A model generated the notes under the pieces. That model was not told the DNA's origin. It worked only from the letters and a program-made list of their open reading frames with translations, and did no database searches. Made by a program: the position numbers and the translations under genes. Positions 685 through 32,900 of a DNA stretch of 64,000 nt are shown here, in pieces. Numbering within the stretch: position 1 is the first letter of the stretch; each line of letters opens with the position of its first letter. The stretch lies in assembly GCF_000186245.1 (NCBI RefSeq), contig NC_014935.1, positions 868,001-932,000 on the forward strand, written 5' to 3'. Source of the DNA: Nitratifractor salsuginis DSM 16511. Its GTDB lineage: Bacteria; Campylobacterota; Campylobacteria; Campylobacterales; Sulfurovaceae.

Positions 685-1935
685 TTAGAACTTGTAGTTG
701 AGCTGGACTGTGAGGCCGAGCTCTTTGTGTTCATTTTTGATGGTGACTGCTTGAGCAGGATAGCCGAAAGCCCCTCCGACATTGGCACTGTGTTTTTCGT
801 TCAAAGCATAGACGACAGTGAAGTCGGCAGAGAAGTTTTTACTGAACTGATAGCTTCCGCCGGCGGTGATATGATCCTCCGCCGTGGCGGGGAATCCAAG
901 GAGGTTGAACATATCTTTTGCGGCACCTTGCTGAGTGCTGCCATCGCTGAGATTGATGGGGGTTTTGCCGTGATTGTACCCCACACGCACTGACCAGGTG
1001 CCGGCATCGTATTGATAACCTATGGCGAAGACATCCTGATCATCCCAATCGAAATCCTCATAACCGGCGGCATGGCTCCACTGAATACGTTTCCAGTCGA
1101 TGGCGATACCGTGGGGACCGCTTCTCCACCCCAGGCCGATGCCGAATTCGGCAGGCTGATCGAGATGACCGTCCAGCTGAATGCCAAAAGGAGCTGCCGC
1201 GGCCCTCAAAGTATTGCCGTAATCCATTTTGACTTTACTTTTATACATCGCACCCACACTCAGGCCATTGCCGAAATCATAGGTCATACCGATGTTGGCG
1301 CCGAAACCGAAATCCTGCTTCTGACCGGGGCTGACAGTTCCGGGTTGTCCATTCTGACCGTGCATCACATAATGGATATCCAGGGATCCATACTGAACAA
1401 TAGGGGCGATCCCGATACTGAGGCCGCCGGTTTTATAGGCGACGGGAACGACGAACTGCATCAACTGCAACGTGGTTTCCATATCAAACAGTTTGCTGTT
1501 TCCCGGCATCCAGTTACTGGGCCCGAGCCCACGAAAATCGGTTCCCATTCCGGCGGTTCCGTACATCCCGGCACCGATGTGAACCCCATTGTCCAAATGG
1601 CTCACAATGGCGACCGCGGGGATCATACTGAGGTCGGCATCGCTGTCGGCTTCATCGGTAACGGGTCCATTCTGGGTGTTGGCTGTGAGGCTGGTATGAA
1701 TGTCGGGCATAAAGATCGTGCCGCCGAAGCTGATCTCCGTATCGTCGACGTAGGTGATCAGAGCCGGGTTGACCAGGGTGGACTCGGCACCGTGGCTGAA
1801 GGCGATCCCGGCGCCGCCCATAGATCGGGTCTTGGCTCCGACACCGACGAGGGTATCTCCATTGGTGGCGTAGAGGGCAGTGGAAGCGACCATAGAGAGG
1901 ATCATAGAACCTTTGACGAGATGATTCAGTTTCAT
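685..1935 (-). CDS. outer membrane transport protein, FadL/OMPP1/TodX family
   Basis: Predicted 14-strand outer-membrane beta-barrel for uptake of hydrophobic compounds. The 416-residue protein starts with a signal peptide ending near residue 23 (SMILSMVASTALYA). The mature protein begins with the family motif GVGAKTRSMGGAGIAFSHGA, as in FadL, followed by alternating aromatic/glycine strands and a C-terminal Phe (LNYKF) typical of outer-membrane proteins. AAGGAG precedes the ATG. It faces away from the downstream transporter operon, with an AT-rich region between them. The substrate cannot be read from the sequence. Confidence 0.87.
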   Translation of the reverse strand: MKLNHLVKGSMILSMVASTALYATNGDTLVGVGAKTRSMGGAGIAFSHGAESTLVNPALITYVDDTEISFGGTIFMPDIHTSLTANTQNGPVTDEADSDADLSMIPAVAIVSHLDNGVHIGAGMYGTAGMGTDFRGLGPSNWMPGNSKLFDMETTLQLMQFVVPVAYKTGGLSIGIAPIVQYGSLDIHYVMHGQNGQPGTVSPGQKQDFGFGANIGMTYDFGNGLSVGAMYKSKVKMDYGNTLRAAAAPFGIQLDGHLDQPAEFGIGLGWRSGPHGIAIDWKRIQWSHAAGYEDFDWDDQDVFAIGYQYDAGTWSVRVGYNHGKTPINLSDGSTQQGAAKDMFNLLGFPATAEDHITAGGSYQFSKNFSADFTVVYALNEKHSANVGGAFGYPAQAVTIKNEHKELGLTVQLNYKF

Positions 1936-2055
1936 TTGTTGCTCCTTGAATAATAAATAGTTAAGGTAACAGAAGCATAACTAAATATAGTTAAAGATAA
2001 GATTAATTAATGAAATACTATTTTTAAAAATAAATGCTATTGTTTGTTTATCTGC

Positions 2056-2085
2056 TTTTCATCGAACAGCGCTTCGGAGTATAAT
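2056..2085 (+). promoter_or_regulatory. candidate sigma-70 promoter for the antiporter/ATPase operon
   Basis: A perfect TATAAT at 2080-2085 has a weak TTTTCA at 2056-2061 with an 18-base spacer. It lies 18 bases upstream of the start codon chosen at 2104, inside the AT-rich 1950-2090 stretch. Confidence 0.4.
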
Positions 2086-2103
2086 AAACAGAGGAGTCCA
2101 AAG

Positions 2104-5100
2104 ATGAACGATCAGCTGTTGGGTGAATTTCTACTGTTACTCTCACTTCTCTTCGCTTTGAGCTATTTCCTGGCCGGAGCGTTGGAGCGGGTGAAAGTTC
2201 CGGGATTGTTGGCGGCCCTTTTCGTCGCGATGGGGATCCACTATACCCCGTTGGGGTCCATCCTCACCCAGGGGATCGAAGGGGAGATCTTCACCACACT
2301 GGCGGATCTGGGCGTACTCTTTCTCCTCTTCTTCATCGGTTCGCAGATCGATGTCAAAGAGATGAAGCGCCAGAGCGGCGAGATTGTTCTGGCAACGGTC
2401 CTCAATACGATGGTGCCCTTCCTGCTAGGGATGGGTGTGATGCTCTGGCTGGGCTACGGCTGGATCCTCGCCTTCGTGATCGGGCTGACGCGAATGCCTA
2501 CAGCCGAAGCGGTGATCGTCCCGATCCTCGACGAGTTCAACCTTCTCAAGACCAAGGTGGGCAATTACATCGTCGGCGCTGGGGTGCTCGACGATGTGAT
2601 CGAAGTTTTTCTCGTCGCTTTCGTCTCCATCTGGATCTCGGAAAAGAGCGGCCTGGTCAGCAGCGATACGAAAGAGATCACCGATATTCTCATCAATATC
2701 GCTATTTTCGTGGCGGCGGCCTGGTTCGCCAGGCGCTATGTGCTGGTGCCCCTTTCCCACTGGACACAGCTCAAAGTCTCCAACCTCGTTATGATGATGA
2801 TCCTGGTACTCTTCCTCTTCGGAGGGTTCGCCGAGTATGCCGATCTGGGCCTGGTGGTCGGCGCCATCGTGGCGGGGATTTTGATGCGGCCGGTCCTCGA
2901 TACCGCCGGGGAAGCCGGCGAGCGGGCCGATCGGGCGACCCGGGCGGTGGCTTACGGCTTTTTCGGGGTGATCTTTTTCCTCTGGGTGGGGATGAGCGTC
3001 GATCTGGAGGGGATGATCAAAGCCCCGGAGTTGGCGATCCTGCTCTTCCTGGCTGCCTTTGTAGGTAAGCTGCTGGGGATCTTCCTGATGGTGCCGATGA
3101 AGAAGCTGACGGTCAAAGAGGCATGGACGATCGGGATCGGGCTCAACGCCCGGCTCACCACGGAGATCATCGTCGCCAAACTGCTCCTCGATGCCCAGCT
3201 GATCGATACCCAGCTCTTTACAGCCCTGGTGGCCGCCTCTTCGGTCTCCACGATCGTGGTTCCGTTGCTCTTCTCGGTATTGGTGGCCAGGTGGAGAGAG
3301 GAGCTGACGGCCTCCACTGCTGCCGCCCCCACCCCGAAAGCCAAAGCCGCAACACCCGTCGAAGCGGAGACTCCCTGGCACGCCAAGCCCATTCAAGCGG
3401 TCCTCAATCTCCTGCAGAGCGATCCGAAAAAGGGGCTCACAGAGGCGGAGGCACGTAAGCGCCTTGCTCTCTACGGCCCCAACCGCATCGAGGCGGTTCA
3501 CAAAGAGAAGTGGTATTGGATACTCCTGCGGCAGTTTACCGACGTGCTGATCCTCATTCTGCTGGTAGCAGCGGCGATCTCCTTTGCCATCGGGGAGATG
3601 GGGGATGCCGTCACGATCCTGGCGATCGTCGTACTCAACGGTATCCTGGGCTTCGTCCAGGAGTTCAAAGCCGAAAAGGCGATCGAAGCGCTGCAGAAGA
3701 TGCTCTCTCCCAAATGCAAAGTGCTGCGGGAGGGCCGGGAGATCGAGATCGATGCCGCGCAGCTGGTGCCCGGTGATCTCGTGTTACTCGAGATCGGGGA
3801 CCGGGTGCCGGCCGATCTTCGGCTGATCGAGGCGGTCAATCTCAAGATCGACGAATCGGCACTGACGGGCGAATCGGTCTCGGTCTCCAAGGATACGAAG
3901 CCGGTTCCCAAGGAAGCGCCGTTGGCCGAGCGCCGCGATATGGCGTGGATGGGGACCAGCGTGACCAATGGTTATGCCCGAGGGGTCGTCGTCGCGACGG
4001 GTATGGCGACGGAATTCGGAAAGATTGCCAGGCTCACCAGTGAAGTGAAACAGACCAAAACACCCCTGCAGAAAAAACTGGCAGTGCTCGGAAAGAAACT
4101 GGGCATTCTCTCGGTCGCCATCTCGGTGCTGGTGGCGATCGTCGGCTACCTCTTCGGCAAGGACCTGATGGAGATGTTCCTCACCGGCGTGTCGCTGGCG
4201 GTGGCGGTAGTGCCCGAGGGCTTGCCGGCGGTGGTGACGATCACCCTGGCTCTGGGCGTCAAGGCGATGGTGCGTCAGCATGCGCTGCTGCGGCGCCTGC
4301 AGGCCGCGGAAAACCTGGGCAGCGCCAACGTCATCTGCACCGACAAGACCGGGACTCTGACGCAGAATCAGATGACCGTCAAAAAGATCTGGACCTTCGC
4401 CGGAGCGGTGGAGGTCACCGGCAGCGGTTACGACCCGGCGGGCCATTTCGAAGCGAAGGGCAAACGCATCGATTATAAAAAACGCCCTGATCTGCTGCTC
4501 CTGCTCAAAACCGGACTGATCTGCAACCACGCATCGCTGCGCAAAGAAGAGGAGGGATGGAAAATCTCGGGAGAACCGACCGAAGCGGCCCTCATCGTGG
4601 CGGCCTACAAGGCGTGGCTGAGCCCCGGCGAACCCAAAGTAATCAGCGAATTCTCCTTCAACTCCGAGCGCAAACGGATGACTGTGGTCGTCGAAGAGAA
4701 GGGGCAAAAGATCGCCTACGTCAAAGGGGCCCCCGAAGTGCTGATCGAGCGGGCCACCCACTATTTCGACGGCAAAGAGTGCAAGCCGCTGAATGCGAAG
4801 ATGCGCCGGGCCTTCGAGGCAGCCTACACCGACCTGGCCAAAAAGGGGCTGCGGACCCTGGCCTTGGCCGAACGGGTGCTGCCGCCCGACATTAGGCTCG
4901 ATCCCGACGAGGTGGAGAAGGATCTGACCCTGCTGGGGATTGTGGGCATCATCGACCCGCCCCGTCCCGAAGTCCCCGAAGCGATCCGAACGGCGCAGCG
5001 CGCCGGCATCCGGGTCGTGATGATCACGGGCGACGCGCCGCTGACGGCCCTGGCGATCGCCAAAGAGGTGGGATTGGAGGCGACACGCGCCATCACGGGC

Positions 5101-6051
5101 AACGAACTCAAGGGAATGGAGGATGAAGCCCTCAAAGCCGCCCTCAAAGAGGGGGTCATCTTCGCCCGCGCGACCCCCCAGGACAAGCTGCGCATCGTCG
5201 AAGTGCTCCAGAGCGAGGGGCTGGTGACGGCAATGACGGGCGACGGGGTCAACGACGCCCCGGCGCTCAAACGGGCCGATATCGGCATCGCGATGGGATT
5301 GCGCGGCACCGATGTGGCCAAAGGGGCGGCCGATATGATCCTGCTGGACGACAACTTCGCTTCGATCGTGGGTGCCGTGCGGGAAGGGCGCCGCCAATAC
5401 GACAACATCAAGAAATTCGTCACCTATCTGCTCTCCTCCAATACCGGAGAAGTGATTGCCATTTTCGTCAATATCCTCCTGGGCGGCCCGCTGATCCTGC
5501 TGCCGGTGCAGATTTTGTGGATGAATCTGGTCACCGACGGCATGACGGCGGTCGCGCTGGGGCTCGAACCGGCCGAAAAGGGGATTATGGAGCGGCCGCC
5601 CCGGTCGGTGAACGCTCCCTTCCTGCAGTTGCGGGGTGTGATCATGATCCTCCTGCTGGGAACCTATATCGGCGGCGGGACCCTCTGGCTCTTCCACCAC
5701 TATCTGACATCGGGCCTTCCCGAGGCCCAGGCGGTCGCGTTGGCGCAGACAGTCGCCTTCACGGGGATCATCATCCTGGAGAAGATGAACGTCTTCAACT
5801 ACCGCAGCCTCCGCGCCCCGATGCCGGTGATCGGCTTTTTCTCCAATCCCTGGGTCCTGGCTGCCTGGACACTGACTGTTTCGGCCCAGGTGGCGGCGGT
5901 CTATGTGCCTTTCCTGCAAAAAGCGCTGCACACCGTGCCGCTGAAGCTTGAGGATTGGCTGCTCATCTTCGAAGTGGCCGTCCCCCTCTTTGTGGTGGTA
6001 GAATTGTATAAATGGTTCGAATGGTGGGTGATGAAAAAACGAGGAGCGTAA
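2104..6051 (+). CDS. fusion: CPA2-type Na+/H+ antiporter + Ca2+-type P-ATPase
   Basis: One unbroken frame of 1315 residues. Residues ~1-405 are a multi-helix Na_H_Exchanger (CPA2) domain with the ion-binding Asp pair D163-D164 (GVLDDVIEV), the pattern of NapA-like antiporters. An Ala/Pro-rich linker (~405-425) leads to a complete P2-type ATPase: Cation_ATPase_N, TGES at 588-591, PEGL with E705, phosphorylated Asp D747 (CTDKTGTLT), a KGAPE nucleotide site and TGDGVND at 1045-1051. SERCA-like Ca2+ ligands are visible: E705, N1113/E1116, N1141/T1144/D1145 and E1226. The start at 2104 has GAGGAG upstream; an ATG at 2044 is in frame but lacks a ribosome site. Ca2+ export coupled to Na+ or H+ movement is inference. 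Confidence 0.9.
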   Translation: MNDQLLGEFLLLLSLLFALSYFLAGALERVKVPGLLAALFVAMGIHYTPLGSILTQGIEGEIFTTLADLGVLFLLFFIGSQIDVKEMKRQSGEIVLATVLNTMVPFLLGMGVMLWLGYGWILAFVIGLTRMPTAEAVIVPILDEFNLLKTKVGNYIVGAGVLDDVIEVFLVAFVSIWISEKSGLVSSDTKEITDILINIAIFVAAAWFARRYVLVPLSHWTQLKVSNLVMMMILVLFLFGGFAEYADLGLVVGAIVAGILMRPVLDTAGEAGERADRATRAVAYGFFGVIFFLWVGMSVDLEGMIKAPELAILLFLAAFVGKLLGIFLMVPMKKLTVKEAWTIGIGLNARLTTEIIVAKLLLDAQLIDTQLFTALVAASSVSTIVVPLLFSVLVARWREELTASTAAAPTPKAKAATPVEAETPWHAKPIQAVLNLLQSDPKKGLTEAEARKRLALYGPNRIEAVHKEKWYWILLRQFTDVLILILLVAAAISFAIGEMGDAVTILAIVVLNGILGFVQEFKAEKAIEALQKMLSPKCKVLREGREIEIDAAQLVPGDLVLLEIGDRVPADLRLIEAVNLKIDESALTGESVSVSKDTKPVPKEAPLAERRDMAWMGTSVTNGYARGVVVATGMATEFGKIARLTSEVKQTKTPLQKKLAVLGKKLGILSVAISVLVAIVGYLFGKDLMEMFLTGVSLAVAVVPEGLPAVVTITLALGVKAMVRQHALLRRLQAAENLGSANVICTDKTGTLTQNQMTVKKIWTFAGAVEVTGSGYDPAGHFEAKGKRIDYKKRPDLLLLLKTGLICNHASLRKEEEGWKISGEPTEAALIVAAYKAWLSPGEPKVISEFSFNSERKRMTVVVEEKGQKIAYVKGAPEVLIERATHYFDGKECKPLNAKMRRAFEAAYTDLAKKGLRTLALAERVLPPDIRLDPDEVEKDLTLLGIVGIIDPPRPEVPEAIRTAQRAGIRVVMITGDAPLTALAIAKEVGLEATRAITGNELKGMEDEALKAALKEGVIFARATPQDKLRIVEVLQSEGLVTAMTGDGVNDAPALKRADIGIAMGLRGTDVAKGAADMILLDDNFASIVGAVREGRRQYDNIKKFVTYLLSSNTGEVIAIFVNILLGGPLILLPVQILWMNLVTDGMTAVALGLEPAEKGIMERPPRSVNAPFLQLRGVIMILLLGTYIGGGTLWLFHHYLTSGLPEAQAVALAQTVAFTGIIILEKMNVFNYRSLRAPMPVIGFFSNPWVLAAWTLTVSAQVAAVYVPFLQKALHTVPLKLEDWLLIFEVAVPLFVVVELYKWFEWWVMKKRGA

Positions 6052-6052
6052 G

Positions 6053-7321
6053 ATGGATTATTCGATGATCCAATCCCTGGCGGTTGTGATTCTGCTGGGA
6101 TTCGCCATCGGGATGCAGCGGACCCTGACCTATATGCGTGCAGAGGAGCGGACCTTCGGAGGGAGTCGGACCTTCGCCCTGATCGCCCTGGCCGGATATA
6201 TGGCCGCCTGGCTGGATGAGCGCTTTACGGGCACGATCCTTGTGACCCTGGCGGTGCTGGGTATCCTGCTGGCTCTCTCCTACTATGTCAAAGTTACCAA
6301 AGCCGGCCGCTGGGGGATGACGACCCAGATCGCGGCGCTGGTGACTTATCTGCTGGGAGTCCTGGCCTATCGGGGGGAGCTGCTCTGGGCCGTCTTCATC
6401 GGGGTGGTCGTGATCATCCTCCTGGAGATCAAGCCGAGACTCCAGGCGCTGGAGCGCCATATCGGCCCCACCGATGTCAACGCCGTGATCCTGCTGTTGA
6501 CGATGAGCTTCGTGATCCTGCCGATCCTCCCCGACAAGATGATCGGCCCGGGCCATCTCTTCAACCCCTACAAAACCTGGCTCATGGCGGTCATCATCGC
6601 GGGGATCTCCTTCGTCGGCTATGTGGCGATCAAGGTGCTGGGGCAAAAACACGGCGTCTTCCTCACCGGCGCGGCGGGCGGGCTCATCTCTTCCACGGCG
6701 GTGAGCATCTCCCTTTCGCAGATGTTCCACAAGCAGTACGATCTGATCAACAACTACGCCGGCGGCATCGCCATCGCCTGTACCTTTATGTATCTGCGGG
6801 TGCTCTTCGAAGCCTTCGTGATCCATCCGGAGCTGGCCTGGAGACTCACACCGGCCTATCTGGGGGCGGCGGTGAGCGGCTTGCTCTACAGCTGGTGGTT
6901 CTACCGCCACTCCAAAGCCGCCGAGATCAATTTGGAGAATAACGCCATCGCCAAAAACCCCCTCCAGCTCAGCGAAGCGATCAAGTTCGGCATCCTCTTC
7001 GGGATCATCTACGGCGCCATCGCCTTCGTGCAGGGACGCTACGGCAACATCGGCGTCTATCTCGTCTCCTTCTTCTCGGGATTGACCGACGTGGACGCGA
7101 TCACCCTTTCGCTGAGCGAATTGGCCAAAGACGGCAAACTGGCCGAAACTGCCTCGATGAACGGGATCGTCATCGCCTCGGTGACCAACTCCATCGTCAA
7201 ACTGGGGATCGTCTATTGGCTGGGAGGTGTGAAGCTGGGTTGGAAGCTGACCCTCTTTTTCCTGGTGACCCTGGGAATGATGGGTCTGGGGCTCTGGATC
7301 GGAGAGACATATATTCATTAA
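6053..7321 (+). CDS. MgtC/SapB-family membrane protein with DUF4010 domain
   Basis: Polytopic inner-membrane protein of 422 residues. The first ~140 residues carry the MgtC-type start (LGFAIGMQRTL, FGGSRTFALIALAGYMAAWL); the rest is the DUF4010 region (FLTGAAGGLISSTAVSISLS, FFSGLTDVDAITLSLSELA). MgtC proteins act in Mg2+ homeostasis and ATPase control; DUF4010 relatives are unassigned. Its start lies one base after the stop of the antiporter/ATPase fusion, so the two are probably translated together. Pairing an MgtC-like protein with a P-ATPase recalls mgtBC operons. Confidence 0.82.
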   Translation: MDYSMIQSLAVVILLGFAIGMQRTLTYMRAEERTFGGSRTFALIALAGYMAAWLDERFTGTILVTLAVLGILLALSYYVKVTKAGRWGMTTQIAALVTYLLGVLAYRGELLWAVFIGVVVIILLEIKPRLQALERHIGPTDVNAVILLLTMSFVILPILPDKMIGPGHLFNPYKTWLMAVIIAGISFVGYVAIKVLGQKHGVFLTGAAGGLISSTAVSISLSQMFHKQYDLINNYAGGIAIACTFMYLRVLFEAFVIHPELAWRLTPAYLGAAVSGLLYSWWFYRHSKAAEINLENNAIAKNPLQLSEAIKFGILFGIIYGAIAFVQGRYGNIGVYLVSFFSGLTDVDAITLSLSELAKDGKLAETASMNGIVIASVTNSIVKLGIVYWLGGVKLGWKLTLFFLVTLGMMGLGLWIGETYIH

Positions 7322-7339
7322 GCATCAAAGGGGGCAAAG

Positions 7340-8002
7340 ATGAACGTAGAAGAGTTTATGGCGTTACAGGATGAGGTTTTTATCCGCTACGACGGAGTGG
7401 AACTGCCGGGACGTCTGGCGGTGCCCGAGGGAGCCGAAGGGATCGTGCTTTTCGCCCATGGAAGCGGCAGCAGCCGCCTCAGCCGGCGCAACAATTATGT
7501 CGCCTCGGTGCTCCACGAAGCGGGGATCGCTACTTTGCTTTTCGATCTGCTGATGGAGCCGGAGGCCCTGGATCGGCGCAATGTCTTCGATATCGACCTG
7601 CTGGCATCACGACTGCTGCTGGCGACCCATTGGACGAGCCTCCAACCTGCACTGAAGGATATGAATGCTGGCTATTTCGGGGCCAGCACCGGCTCGGCGG
7701 CAGCGCTCAAGGCTTCGGTCCTTTCCCCGGTACCCATCCGCGCCATCGTCTCCCGGGGCGGCCGCCCCGATATGGCGGCGGACGTGCTGGAGCGTGTCAC
7801 CGCCCCGACCCTCATCATCGTAGGCGGTAACGACTACGGCGTCATCGAACTCAATGAAGAGGCCTACCGCCGACTGCGCTGCGAAAAGGCCTTCGAGATC
7901 GTCCCCGGCGCCACCCACCTCTTCGAAGAGCCCGGCACCCTGGAGCGGGTGGCGGAGCTGGCAAGGGATTGGTTTGTGAGACATTTGAGAGCTGAGAGCT
8001 GA
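7340..8002 (+). CDS. alpha/beta hydrolase, dienelactone-hydrolase-like
   Basis: Small cytoplasmic hydrolase of 220 residues. The oxyanion-side motif LFAHGSGSSRLS precedes the nucleophile elbow GASTGS with Ser116. An Asp (GGNDYGVIE) and a late His (PGATHLFEEPG) complete a plausible triad. Close relatives often occur alone or fused to phosphoribosyltransferases; the substrate is unknown. It is third in the transport operon, 18 bases after the MgtC-like gene, with GGGGGC upstream as a weak ribosome site. Its last codons (LRAES) are already part of the GAGAGCT repeat run that follows. Confidence 0.75.
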   Translation: MNVEEFMALQDEVFIRYDGVELPGRLAVPEGAEGIVLFAHGSGSSRLSRRNNYVASVLHEAGIATLLFDLLMEPEALDRRNVFDIDLLASRLLLATHWTSLQPALKDMNAGYFGASTGSAAALKASVLSPVPIRAIVSRGGRPDMAADVLERVTAPTLIIVGGNDYGVIELNEEAYRRLRCEKAFEIVPGATHLFEEPGTLERVAELARDWFVRHLRAES

Positions 8003-8232
8003 GCGTTGAGAGTTGAGAGTTGAGGGTTGGTCGTTGGTTGTTGGTCGTTGGTTGTTGGTTGTTGGTCGTTGGTCGTTGGTCGTTGGTCGTTGGTCGTTGG
8101 TCGTTGGTCGTTGGTCGTTGGTCGTTGGGGCAGCGGAGAAAAATTACTAGTTACTAGTTTCTAGTTCTTCGGTTACTCATTACTCGGTTACTCATTACTC
8201 GGTTGCTCGGTTGCTCGGTTACTCGGTTGCTC
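7986..8232. repeat. composite run of 7-8 bp tandem repeats
   Basis: Three repeat families sit end to end between convergent genes: TGAGAGC/TGAGCGT units (7986-8030), about 15 TTGGTCG/TTGGTTG units of exactly 7 bases (8025-8127), then ATTACTAG and GGTTACTC/GGTTGCTC units of 7-8 bases (8140-8232). The run starts inside the last codons of the hydrolase and ends at the sirtuin stop codon. No gene is seen in it. Confidence 0.95.
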
Positions 8233-10848: not shown

Positions 10849-10998
10849 AACTATTCCTTTGCTACTTGGTATGAAAGAAATTCGATTTTACCCTACGGAT
10901 ATTAACGAACTCGGCAATGAATCTAACGGTTTCAAAATTATTTATCAGTAAGATTTGAATTTATGATACAATCATTACAATACGCAAAAGGAGTGCGC

Positions 10999-11244
10999 AT
11001 GAATGTTTTATATGACAAGAAAGCATCGAAGAAAGCGACCAACATCTCCCTTAACAGTGATCTCGTCCGAAAAGCCAAACTCTATGGAATCAATCTCTCT
11101 CAAACCCTCGAAGTGGCATTGGAGCGGATCGTGAAAGAGAAAGAGGAGAAGCAATGGCGCAAGGAGAACCGAACGGCGATCGAAGTCCAGAATCGGCGTG
11201 TCGAAAAGGAAGGGGCCTTTTCCGATGAATTTCGGAGATTCTGA
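10999..11244 (+). CDS. ccdA: CcdA-type antitoxin
   Basis: An 81-residue antitoxin with an N-terminal ribbon-helix-helix DNA-binding part (KATNISLNSDLVRKAKLYGI, NLSQTLEVALE) and a charged C-terminal tail that should wrap the toxin. In CcdAB pairs it neutralises CcdB and represses its own promoter. The ATG at 10999 has AAAGGAG just upstream; an earlier in-frame start at 10963 lacks one. Its stop overlaps the ccdB start in TGATG, as usual for the pair. Confidence 0.85.
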   Translation: MNVLYDKKASKKATNISLNSDLVRKAKLYGINLSQTLEVALERIVKEKEEKQWRKENRTAIEVQNRRVEKEGAFSDEFRRF

Positions 11245-11552
11245 TGGCGCAATTCGATGTCTATCCCAATCCCAATGAATCGAGTGCCGCGCTTTTTCCT
11301 TATCTGGTGGATATTACCAATCCCCTGCACGATGACTTGAAATTACGTGTCGTCGTGCCGCTGTGCAGTGACGGGGCTGCCATTAGACATCTCAATCCCA
11401 TTTTTACCATTGAGGGCAAAGCGGTTTATCTATCGGTGATGGATATTGCCGGTGTACCGGCCTCTTTGCTCTCAAAAGCCCCGGTCGCAAATCTCTCTGA
11501 GAAGCATTCAGAGATCATCGATGCGATAGATTTTCTGCTGAACGGCTTTTGA
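11244..11552 (+). CDS. ccdB: CcdB-type toxin (gyrase poison)
   Basis: A 102-residue protein with the CcdB pattern: start AQFDVYPNPNE, then YLVDITNPLHDDLKLRVVVP, LNPIFTIEGKAVYLSV and the C-terminal helix that ends before Phe102 (IIDAIDFLLNGF). CcdB traps DNA gyrase on DNA. The length matches the family, and the gene overlaps ccdA. The frame is intact, so the module may be active. Confidence 0.85.
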   Translation: MAQFDVYPNPNESSAALFPYLVDITNPLHDDLKLRVVVPLCSDGAAIRHLNPIFTIEGKAVYLSVMDIAGVPASLLSKAPVANLSEKHSEIIDAIDFLLNGF

Positions 11553-14283: not shown

Positions 14284-14440
14284 ATGAAGAATGAGCAACC
14301 GAGTAACCGAGTAATGAGTAACCGAATGAGTGAGCTGTCGATCATTATGGAGTCATAACACTTAGCACGTAACACTTAACACAATTCTGGCTTGCGACTT
14401 GAGGGGCGAAGCCCCGTGCCTGCGACTTGCGACTCTATAA
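14284..14440. repeat. composite short repeats with a small hairpin
   Basis: Between two leftward genes: GAGTAACC-type units (14290-14330), TAACACTTA units (14355-14380), and CTTGCGA units split by a perfect hairpin GGGGC-GAA-GCCCC at 14403-14415. No coding sequence is seen. Confidence 0.8.
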
Positions 14441-14445
14441 AAAAG

Positions 14446-16437
14446 TCAGTGGATCTCTTTAAGCCGCATGACGAAGTTTCTGGGAGGGACGAAACCGACC
14501 ATAAATTTGTCGGGGAGAGGGCGGCCTTTGGAGTCGAAGACGAGGATGTTGGGGGCGCCGAAGAGTTTGTAGTGTTTGAGGATCTCCTGCTCTTTGGGGG
14601 TGTTGTCGGTGATGTCGATCTGGAGGAATTTGAAGCGTTTGAGGGCTTCGCGGACTTTGGGATCGGGGAAGGTGATGTGCTCCAGTTCGCTGCAGGCGGC
14701 GCAGTTTTCCTTCCCGATATCCACGATGACGGGTTTGCCCTCTTTGGTGGCCTGGGCGATCTCCCGCTGGAGCCGCTCCAGGGTGTAGCCCCGGCGCCGG
14801 GCCATCGGAACGAGGGGCGAGTCACTTTCGGCGCTGGCGGCGACGGTTTTGGCAGTGAAGGGCTCCAGGGGGTTCAGGAGCGATTGGGCCCCGGCCAGCG
14901 TTCCGACGAAGAGAGTGGAGCCGTAGAGGAAAAGGACAAGGGCCAAAAGCTGGATCAGCTTGGCGGCTCCCTTGTAGTGATCGCCGCTATCGAAGACCCG
15001 CAGATAGAGGGCGCTGCCCAGCAGGAGTAGGGAAGCCAGGAACATAAAGAGTCCGGGGCTCAGAACCCCCCGGAGCACATAGAGGGCCATCGCCAGCATC
15101 ACGACGCCGAAGATCTGGCTGACCCGGTTCATCCAGCCGCCCGGTTTGGGGATGAGCTTGTCGGCTCCCAGGCCCATAAGCAGCAGCGGCATTCCGGCGC
15201 CGATCCCCATCACGAAGAGGCTGAGGCCTCCCAGCACGGCATCGCCGGTCATCGAGATGAAGATCACCGCCCCGCTGATGACGGGCGCGGTGCAGGTGCC
15301 CACGATCAGGGCAGAGAGGGCGCCCATAATTGCGGTGCCCAGCAGCCCCTTGCCCTGGGCTTCGTCGCTGGCTTTGGTGAGTTTGCTCTGCCAGGAGGCG
15401 GGCAGGCCCAGCTCGAAGTAGCCAAAAAGCGAGAAGGCCAGGGCCACGAAGAGCCCCGCCATCGGGATCATCACCCAGGGGTTATTCAGATGGGCTTGGA
15501 TATCGAAGCCCAGCAGTCCGGCGACGATTCCGATGAGGGCGTAGGTGGCTGCCATGGAGACCACATAGACCAGCGAAATGATAAAGGCGGTGGAACGGCT
15601 CACCCCTCCCTCTTTGCCCGCCTGTTTGACCAGGATCGACGAGAGGATGGGGATCATCGGCAGGATGCAAGGAGTCAGAGCCAACAGCAGCCCGGCGATG
15701 AAAAAGAGCAGCAGGACAAAAAGGACCCCCTCATCGGCCAATGCCCGGGCGATCTTGGCGCTGTTGCCCTCTTTGGCCAGAGTGGAGATTTTGGCGAAGA
15801 AACCAGGGTGTTCAGCTTTCGCTGAAGATTTTGGATTTTGGATTTTGGATTTTGGATGGGTTTGGTCGTTGGTCGTTGGTCGTTGAGAGCTGAGCGTTGA
15901 GCGTTGAGCGTTGAGCGTTGAGGATTTGTTTTCTTCGGTTGCTCGGTTGCTCGGTTGCTCGGTTGCTCGGTTACTGGATTCCTCATTTGAAGGCTCCGCC
16001 TTCAGGTCGAAGGTGTATTTCTGGGGGGCGTAGCAGATGCCGGCGTCGCTGCAGCCGCTCAGGTCGATCTCCAGGGTGAAAGGGCCTTCGATGCCTTTCT
16101 CCCTTAGCTTCTGGAGGGGGATGTCGATGTTGAGGGTACCGTAATAGACCTTCTGGCCTTCGTAATCTACGGGTTCGGGTTTTTTGACATCGAGCTCGAA
16201 ACTTTTGGGCTTGATGATTTTGAAATGGAGGTCTTTGGCGTAGATGTGGATCTTTTCTCCCAGTTTGACGGTGGTTTTGATCTTGTCCCCCCGGATCTTG
16301 GCCTGGACTTTGAAAGCCTGATCGGGGGTGAGGAACTTGCGCTGGAGATGAAATCCGCCGCTGCTTCCAAAGCCGGCCTGGAGCCAGAGCATCGGAGTGA
16401 GCAGCAATCCCGCGATTATAATGAGACGTCGTAACAT
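14446..16437 (-). CDS. dsbD: thiol:disulfide interchange protein DsbD
   Basis: Carries electrons from cytoplasmic thioredoxin to periplasmic Dsb and cytochrome-maturation partners. The 663-residue protein has a signal peptide (1-21), a periplasmic N-terminal domain with redox Cys129 and Cys135 (SGCSDAGICYAP), a central eight-helix region (LTPCILPMIPILSSIL, GTCTAPVISGAV), and a C-terminal thioredoxin domain with CAAC at 579-582. Between the first domain and the membrane part, residues ~150-207 are encoded by four families of 7-8 bp repeats, giving a low-complexity S/T/N/Q/R linker. The frame is intact. Confidence 0.92.
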   Translation of the reverse strand: MLRRLIIIAGLLLTPMLWLQAGFGSSGGFHLQRKFLTPDQAFKVQAKIRGDKIKTTVKLGEKIHIYAKDLHFKIIKPKSFELDVKKPEPVDYEGQKVYYGTLNIDIPLQKLREKGIEGPFTLEIDLSGCSDAGICYAPQKYTFDLKAEPSNEESSNRATEQPSNRATEENKSSTLNAQRSTLSSQRPTTNDQTHPKSKIQNPKSSAKAEHPGFFAKISTLAKEGNSAKIARALADEGVLFVLLLFFIAGLLLALTPCILPMIPILSSILVKQAGKEGGVSRSTAFIISLVYVVSMAATYALIGIVAGLLGFDIQAHLNNPWVMIPMAGLFVALAFSLFGYFELGLPASWQSKLTKASDEAQGKGLLGTAIMGALSALIVGTCTAPVISGAVIFISMTGDAVLGGLSLFVMGIGAGMPLLLMGLGADKLIPKPGGWMNRVSQIFGVVMLAMALYVLRGVLSPGLFMFLASLLLLGSALYLRVFDSGDHYKGAAKLIQLLALVLFLYGSTLFVGTLAGAQSLLNPLEPFTAKTVAASAESDSPLVPMARRRGYTLERLQREIAQATKEGKPVIVDIGKENCAACSELEHITFPDPKVREALKRFKFLQIDITDNTPKEQEILKHYKLFGAPNILVFDSKGRPLPDKFMVGFVPPRNFVMRLKEIH
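15813..16003. repeat. four repeat families inside dsbD, bordered by hairpins
   Basis: On the plus strand: hairpin TTCAGC-TTTC-GCTGAA (15813-15828), four TTTTGGA units, three TTGGTCG units, about six TTGAGCG-like units, four to five CGGTTGCT units, then hairpin GAAGGC-TCC-GCCTTC (15989-16003). The 7-base and 8-base periods are clean. The whole block is read through by dsbD. Confidence 0.95.
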
Positions 16438-16564: not shown

Positions 16565-18541
16565 ATGAGTAACCGTTTGATCCACGAGCAGTCCCCCTAC
16601 CTGCGGCAGCACGCCGAGAATCCTGTGGATTGGTATCCCTGGGGGGATGAGGCCTTTGAAAAAGCAAGGCGGGAGGATAAGCCGATCTTCCTCTCCATCG
16701 GTTACAGTGCCTGCCACTGGTGTCACGTGATGGAGCGGGAGAGTTTCGAAAATCCCGAGCTGGCAAAGCTGCTCAATGAACATTTTGTCTCCATCAAAGT
16801 GGACCGGGAGGAACGCCCCGATATCGACAAGCACTTTCAGGAGGTCTTCGTGACGATGAACGGCAGGGCCGGGGGGTGGCCGCTGAGTATTTTTATGACG
16901 CCGGAGAAAATTCCTTTCTACTCGGCGACCTATATTCCCCCCGAGCCCCGCTACGGGATGATGGGATTTGGGGAGCTGCTGGAGACCATCGCCGCCAAAT
17001 ATGCCAAGGATCGCGAAACCCTCATCGAGAAGGGGCGGGAAGTCCTGGAGTTCATCAAACCCAAGGATAAGATCCAGGCGACCCGGATCGACGCTCAGCT
17101 CGAGTCGATCGTGCTCAAGCAGATCAAACAGGTCTATGAACCGAACTTCGGTGGCTTCGGCGGTGCGCCAAAATTCCCCCACGCTTCGACCCTGCGCCTG
17201 GCCCTGGCGATGCTGCAGCTGCGCGATGATAAGGAGCTGGAGCGTATCGTGCGTCATACCCTGGAGAGTATGGCGTTGGGCGGGCTCTACGACCTGGTCG
17301 ACGGAGGTTTTTGCCGCTACAGCACCGACGAGAAGTGGCTGGTGCCCCATTTCGAGAAGATGACTTATGACAATGCTCTGCTGGCGGAGGTCTATGCTAA
17401 AGCGGCCGCTGTCTTTGAAAACGAGGATTATTGGCAAATCGCCCGGGAGACTTTGGACTTTATGCTGGAGCGGATGATGGAGGGGAATCTCTTTTTCTCC
17501 GCCAGCGATGCCGACAGTGAGGGAGAGGAGGGCGAATACTTCGTCTACGACTATGCCGAAGCGGTGGAAGCCTTTGCCCGGGCGGGGATCACGGAGCCGG
17601 AGCTTGCGGCCCGGAAGTTGGGGATGAGCCCGGAGGGGAATTTCGAAGGGAAAAACATCCCGCGTTTAAGCGCTTTTCAAGAGCGTAACGATCCTCAGCT
17701 CAACAAGGCCCTGAAGGTTTTGAAAGAGCTCAGAGCGAAGCGTTGCTATCCCTTTATCGACCGCAAGATTCAGAGCTCCTGGAACGCGATGATGATCCGC
17801 GCGCTTTTCGTGGCGGGACGTCGGGAGCCGCGTTACCTGGAGCAGGCGAAACGCAGCCTAGAGGCGTTGGAGGGGAAAATGACTGCAGGCGTGTGGATCT
17901 TCCACTCGGCCCTTATCGATATGGAGCCGAAGATCGAGGGCTTTTTGGAAGATTACGCCTGGTGGATCAGCGCCCTGCTGGAGGGGTACCGCAGCACCCT
18001 GGATGAGCGTTATCTGATCCGAGCTACGGAGCTGGGCAACGAGGCGATCCGCCGCTTCTACGACCGGGGGCGCTGGCGGATCGACGACGGGGAGTTCCGG
18101 GAGGTCTGTGAGGATACCGATACGGGCTACCCCTCGGCCCTGGCGGTGATGACGGAGGCCCTGCTGGGGATTCGGGCCCTCATCGACCCGGTCTACGACA
18201 AATTCATCGCCCGGACCCTGGAGGTCCACTCCTATCAGCTGATGCGCCAACCCATCGCCCGGCCTACGCTGGCAGAGGCGGCTATCCGCCATTTGCGCGA
18301 CGACTTGATCGTCAAAGGGGCCCTAGAGCGGCTCCGCCCCCATATCCCCGAGATCGACGGTATCGGATATCCCTGGTTCTGGCTCCGAACCGCCTTTGAG
18401 AGCGGCTATATGCTCTGCGGAACCCGGAACTGCTTTGCCAATGAGGAGAGCTTCGAAATGATCCGCAAAGCGGTGAGCTACTGGGTGAATGAGGAATTAG
18501 GAATGAGGAATGAGGAACCGAATAACCGAATAACAGAGTAA
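16565..18541 (+). CDS. DUF255 thioredoxin-domain protein (YyaL/SPATA20 family)
   Basis: Protein of 658 residues. The first ~170 residues form a thioredoxin-like domain with the conserved start ([20 protein letters not shown]), W-Y-P-W, and the CHWC motif in [15 protein letters not shown]. The remainder is an (alpha/alpha)6-barrel like N-acylglucosamine 2-epimerases ([32 protein letters not shown]). Function is unproven in bacteria. The C-terminal ~20 residues after YWV are encoded by ATGAGGA and CCGAATAA repeats, so the native C-terminus was probably replaced by repeat sequence. Confidence 0.88.
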
Positions 18542-18624
18542 CCGAGTAACCGAGTAACCGAGCAACCGAGCAACCGAGCAACCGAATTCTCAACGCTCAA
18601 CGCTTAGCTCTCAGTTCTCAGCTC
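18497..18624. repeat. composite 7-8 bp tandem repeats between convergent genes
   Basis: Order: ATGAGGA units (18500-18515), CCGAATAA/CCGAGTAA/CCGAGCAA units of 8 bases (about nine, 18517-18588), then CAACGCT and AGCTCTC units to 18624, ending two bases before the truA stop codon. The first part overlaps the 3' end of the DUF255 gene. Confidence 0.93.
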
Positions 18625-32785: not shown

Positions 32786-32826
32786 GAACCATTCGGTTAT
32801 TCATTACCCGGTTATTCGGTTAAGCC
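32786..32826. repeat. degenerate GGTTATTC 7-8 bp repeat
   Basis: Four imperfect units (CGGTTATTC, ATTACC, CGGTTATTC, GGTT) just before the haem operon; a relic of the GGTTACTC family seen at 8.2 and 15.95 kb. Confidence 0.6.
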
Positions 32827-32900
32827 GTGACTTATTATCCTTTCTGTCTCTTTGCTATAATACCTCTCCTATAATTTTAAAAGTGACGAAAGAGAGCATA

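Follow-up and report, generated by a model that had tools for sequence, protein, structure and literature searches.

Does a single gene join a secondary transporter to an ATP-driven pump, how did such a joint come about, and what may the joined protein do? To our knowledge, cells normally make the pumps and the exchangers for a given ion economy as separate proteins. A sequence-only reading of DNA from Nitratifractor salsuginis had claimed that a complete CPA2 antiporter and a complete P2-type, SERCA-like ATPase are encoded as one polypeptide. All positions given here refer to the window, i.e. the whole stretch of 64,000 nucleotides that was analysed, and all genes, domains and the promoter-like site described within it lie on the forward (+) strand.

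A single reading frame conserved in Campylobacterota

The gene at 2104–6051 starts with an ATG at 2104 and runs uninterrupted to a stop codon at 6049–6051, thereby encoding 1315 amino acids. The Pfam domains follow each other in the order PF00999 (residues 19–394), then PF00690, PF00122, PF00702/PF13246 and PF00689 (over residues 425–1305), and all matches were well over the gathering scores. With a single frame, these domains and intact residues in both halves, the claim of two complete transporters in one polypeptide holds; D163-D164, TGES, D747, E705, N1113, E1116, N1141, T1144, D1145 and E1226, which had been named in support of it, are all in place. An AGGAG motif is located 8 nt 5′ of the ATG, and a sigma-70-like promoter candidate (TTTTCA-18-TATAAT; 2056–2085) was recognized upstream of the gene by consensus match only. 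An Rfam scan of window positions 1900–8100 found no RNA elements. Because no in-frame ATG, GTG or TTG was seen in codons 395–445, the product should be one chain, and a separate ATPase made from an internal translation start was rejected.

N. salsuginis E9I37-1T comes from a deep-sea vent, uses hydrogen, grows at 1.5–3.5% NaCl and has a genome of 2,101,285 bases (PMC3156401). The genome holding the fused gene is a single contig. A search for the fusion in other Campylobacterota had been proposed as a check, and the full-length form indeed recurs in many independent genomes: It is present in one open frame in 13 of 397 Campylobacterota genomes, and with broken frames in two further ones (G082 and G401). 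This genome survey together with contigs found through the antiporter half gave about 24 distinct fused loci including that of the window (at least 23 others), several of them in single-contig genomes and named as Hydrogenimonas, Nitratiruptor, Sulfurovum, Sulfurospirillum, a Lamellibrachia-associated MAG, and others. In the main clade, full-length copies share 68–88% identity with the protein encoded in the window. The full-length conservation in other genomes excludes a product of chance or an assembly artefact. Frameshifts within the fused gene of two MAG relatives (L008 and L009) look like draft errors and indicate that errors do occur in this region, but the recurrence of the joint in many independent genomes, several of them single-contig, and purifying selection on either side of it leave next to no probability for an assembly or sequencing error that joined two genes, and we regard this explanation as already refuted. 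The sequence-only reading had also considered that homologues might be two separate genes, with the stop between them lost in this assembly alone. Separate genes were found in more distant relatives, whereas a loss specific to this assembly does not agree with the independent recurrence of the fusion.

Properties of the two halves and of the linker

The antiporter domain comprises residues 1–400 (2104–3303) and was assigned by PF00999 (145.5 bits; gathering score 26.2), by its profile match to NapA, by an AlphaFold2 (AF2) model and by conservation. NapA of Thermus thermophilus, a CPA2 antiporter (PDB 4bwz, 5bz2), ranked first among solved structures (4bwz, E 5e-20), and the NapA-like fold covers residues 6–405. 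In the alignment D163, D164 and K322 correspond to D156, D157 and K305 of NapA, so that the fold, the DD pair in TM5 and the lysine in TM10 are shared; all three residues are invariant in 52 sequences of the antiporter subgroup described below. The model (pLDDT 88.3, pTM 0.83) superimposes on NapA with a Z of 41.8 and an rmsd of 3.1 over 381 residues, and represents an NhaA-type fold with two broken, crossing helices (120–128/135–144 and 337–346/352–363).

Despite the common fold, the antiporter half is only 25% identical to NapA, is fused to an ATPase, and carries the motifs MPTAEAV, LDDVIEV and NARLTTE together with three extra acids, E135, E167 and E354, where NapA has V, G and G. In the 52 subgroup sequences E135, D163, D164, T352, T353 and E354 are invariant, E167 is invariant in every sequence having that position, and R130 is kept in 47. 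The three motifs as a set were absent from the other Pfam matches of the same genome and from a haloarchaeal CPA2 relative, whose residue at the E354 position is, however, likewise acidic. The half did not reach the cut-off of NCBIfam TIGR00932 (105.6 vs 238.3 bits), which places it as a divergent CPA2 subgroup outside that named subfamily. Judging from the sequences, it belongs to a distinct subgroup characterized by the extra invariant acids near the DD pair. The sequence-only reading had named Na+ as the transported ion, which follows from homology only; given three additional conserved acids in or close to the ion site, Na+ is not assured, and Ca2+ or another cation is a possible substrate. 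In the model, E135 and E354 lie N-terminally in the second half of the respective broken helix, beside the ion site expected for this fold, and this placement may indicate an ion or a stoichiometry differing from that of NapA.

The ATPase domain comprises residues 425–1315 (3376–6048), of which about 425–1306 resemble SERCA and SPCA, and was assigned to the P2A type (SERCA/SPCA-like) by Pfam/NCBIfam, structure-profile matches and ligand alignment. TGES at 588, DKTGT at 747 and the P2 domain order are present. Among solved structures SPCA1 (E 1e-186), LMCA1 and SERCA are the best matches, and the entire half can be aligned to the P2A Ca2+-ATPases SERCA, SPCA (ATP2C1) and LMCA1, including DKTGT, TGES and the equivalents of E309, N796 and D800; the fused protein is set apart from all of them by its N-terminal antiporter. 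NCBIfam equivalog cut-offs were narrowly missed (PMR1-type TIGR01522, 788.2 vs 798.3 bits; SERCA-type TIGR01116, 682.2 vs 703.4 bits), and the half was thus filed as P2A-like with no named equivalog. The SERCA ligands E309, N768, E771, N796, T799, D800 and E908, which form both Ca2+ sites, correspond to E705, N1113, E1116, N1141, T1144, D1145 and E1226, and in this ATPase subfamily all 41 homologues compared keep the seven unchanged. SPCA and LMCA1 diverge at site I, LMCA1 having Arg795 there and one Ca2+ site (PMC11977196), whereas the ATPase half retains the site I ligands of SERCA. With all seven ligands present, site I included, transport of two Ca2+ per ATP with counter-transport of H+ is plausible.

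The two halves are connected by a linker rich in Ala, Pro and Lys (residues 401–428; 3304–3387), which was delimited by identity, pLDDT and the lack of an in-frame start codon. Between the window and its relatives the linker is 30–50% identical compared to 68–90% in the halves, and pLDDT drops below 50 for residues 407–424. In comparisons with the nearest relatives, each half has a dN/dS of about 0.09 and the 28-residue linker one of 0.35–0.6. Comparison of these sequences indicates that both halves are under strong purifying selection, while the tether evolves fast and is not conserved. The C-terminus of NapA-type antiporters, which are dimers, is located in the cytoplasm, as is the N-terminus of P2 ATPases. 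The joint is therefore topologically sound, and the fused protein would form a dimer bearing two pumps.

Relatives, neighbouring genes and origin of the fusion

Bacterial relatives of SERCA commonly neighbour Na+-H+ exchangers (PMC7016017). A one-chain form is not described in the part of that paper considered here. We found the antiporter and its matching ATPase as separate neighbouring genes outside Campylobacterota, in eight other phyla: Adjacent pairs occur in Chromatiales and other Gammaproteobacteria, Desulfobulbaceae/Desulfobacteraceae, Nitrospirota, Myxococcota, Planctomycetota, Actinomycetota, Chloroflexota and Hydrogenedentota. In seven loci (L031, L034, L037, L038, L040, L041 and L061) a universal stress protein (Usp) gene encoding about 140 amino acids lies between the two, which Pfam confirmed for three of the seven, and its product is a possible regulator of the pair. 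The proteins of the antiporter–Usp–P2 ATPase clusters of Chromatiales, Desulfobulbaceae, Nitrospirota and others are about 58–71% identical to each half of the fused protein, but their genes are separate, several with the Usp gene in between. In Gammaproteobacteria, none of the matches listed (274 genomes) is a fusion. In Campylobacterota of the Sulfurovum type the two genes are adjacent and share about 10 nt, the ATG of the ATPase gene preceding the antiporter stop.

In trees of both halves the fused copies form two clades, A, which contains the window, and B (L045, L047 and L050), and the clade with overlapping genes is sister to clade B in both. The antiporter and ATPase trees are concordant on which copies are fused. 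The antiporter data reject a single clade of all fused copies (AU p 1.7e-6), whereas the ATPase data do not (p 0.065). The two clades together with this rejection imply that the genes were fused twice, or were fused once and separated again later. The ancestry in separate genes is clear from these comparisons: The fusion arose from two neighbouring genes, probably co-transcribed, which still overlap in close relatives. Antiporter-only loci (L025, L094 and L063) are nested in the fused clades with the MgtC-DUF4010 gene still adjacent, suggesting that the pump part was lost later, and their presence inside both clades implies that the link between antiporter and pump is not obligatory. A viral origin was rejected, with no relatives in IMG/VR, and so was plasmid carriage; P2 ATPases on Leisingera plasmids (about 51% identical) adjoin Usp genes without an antiporter in the stretch viewed, and plasmid antiporters among the matches listed are at most 30% identical.

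The gene following the fused one encodes the MgtC-DUF4010 membrane protein of 422 amino acids (6053–7321; PF13194, PF02308, synteny), its ATG being located one base past the fused-gene stop. It is found downstream of most Campylobacterota copies, fused and unfused. This protein was modelled with middling confidence (pLDDT 74.9), and matches to ion-transporter folds were weak (Z ≤8.6). In L025, L063, L094 and L099 (G013), the subgroup antiporter is directly followed by the MgtC-DUF4010 gene without an ATPase, so that the pair of antiporter and DUF4010 may represent the more basic arrangement among Campylobacterota. The probable last gene of the operon encodes an alpha/beta-hydrolase-like protein (7340–8002; weak PF12146), of which an 89% identical copy occurs in the nearest relative, L021.

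Several further observations were made in the window and among distant relatives. A chromosomal CcdA/CcdB toxin-antitoxin pair is located at 10963–11244 and 11244–11552; both Pfam matches were strong, while NCBIfam equivalog cut-offs were not reached. Tandem arrays of 7- or 8-base units (GTTGGTC, TCGGTTAC/GAGTAACC, CGTTGAG, AATCCAA) occur at 592–632, 7985–8232, 14293–14382, 15827–15972, 18487–18585, 32791–32828 and other positions, many of them apparently intergenic, and one motif was counted 25 times compared to 1.3 expected. In a Diapherotrites archaeon (L067, 1–2555) the end of a P2 ATPase gene (43% identity) precedes a distant PF00999-like antiporter (25%) with an overlap of a few bases, i.e. 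in reversed order. In a Nitrospinota locus (L043, 1537–6739) the antiporter gene adjoins, as judged by eye, an MgtE-like, a CorA-like and another CPA2 gene, and the same genome has a 62% identical ATPase elsewhere.

Functional interpretation and significance

Considering the single frame, the catalytic and ligand residues intact in either half, the purifying selection acting on both, the conserved fusion and the separate-gene ancestry, we regard it as probable that a CPA2 cation/proton antiporter with a NapA fold and a SERCA-like P2A pump are tethered by a flexible cytoplasmic linker into a co-assembled cation-efflux unit whose halves work independently. Each half would run on its own standard mechanism: As suggested by its residues, the ATPase half would export Ca2+ via two sites with counter-transport of H+, and the antiporter half would exchange inward H+ for an exported cation, which may be Na+ or a divalent like Ca2+. 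The fusion would fix a 1:1 stoichiometry, co-insertion and a common location, with dimerization via the NapA-type antiporter and two pumps attached. Such an efflux unit would act against the cation load of vent and sea water and would not be a stoichiometrically coupled hybrid machine.

It is possible, though we hold it doubtful, that both halves move the same divalent, a high-affinity Ca2+ pump being combined with a high-capacity exchanger of Ca2+ (or another divalent) and H+ for two-tier efflux in one chain. The extra acids, which adjoin the DD pair and sit where the two helices break, and which are invariant or nearly so, would fit such a function, the pump partner is of the Ca2+ type in every adjacent pair tested, and the downstream MgtC-DUF4010 gene and the MgtE-/CorA-like genes by the Nitrospinota homologue (by eye) hint at divalent homeostasis. 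However, NapA, the closest solved relative with the same DD pair and lysine, is a Na+/H+ antiporter, the extra acids could have a role in H+ coupling or in structure, one of them may be neutralised by R130, and the haloarchaeal relative is also acidic at the E354 position. Only tentatively, then, may the protein be seen as a hybrid of secondary and primary transporter, recurrently fused in Campylobacterota, whose antiporter half represents a new CPA2 subgroup for a divalent (Ca2+/H+); if this is true, one protein holds a high-affinity pump and a high-capacity exchanger for the same ion.

True functional coupling, in which ATP-driven Ca2+ export and Na+/H+ exchange recycle each other's counter-ions in one complex, appears rather improbable, although both transporters are in one chain and are consistently paired as neighbours in other phyla. 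A SERCA-type pump takes H+ in as Ca2+ goes out, and H+ is likewise taken in by a CPA2 antiporter running on the proton motive force. Protons would thus enter through both halves and could not be recycled between them unless the antiporter ran in reverse, so the recycling suggested by the sequence-only reading is unsupported; moreover, the linker is flexible and poorly conserved, and homologues exist unfused or without the pump. We regard it as very unlikely that the antiporter half chiefly regulates the ATPase, be it by sensing pH or cations or as a dimer scaffold: CPA folds are elsewhere fused to regulatory parts, e.g. in SLC9C1 and SOS1, which were among the fold matches, but every transport residue is retained here under strong selection, and antiporter-only versions exist.

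The independently working efflux unit, which we prefer, combines known families in a domain architecture that is new. To the sequence-only reading no described protein of this build was known, and we likewise found no published description of an antiporter-ATPase fusion in the literature searched, mainly papers available without subscription. The conserved one-chain form, together with living relatives that have unfused or overlapping genes, suggests that pump and exchanger are linked physically and functionally in bacteria, and the fused protein would offer a single purifiable complex for testing their cooperation. It also draws attention to a distinct subgroup of antiporters that has Ca2+-type pumps as partners in about nine phyla.
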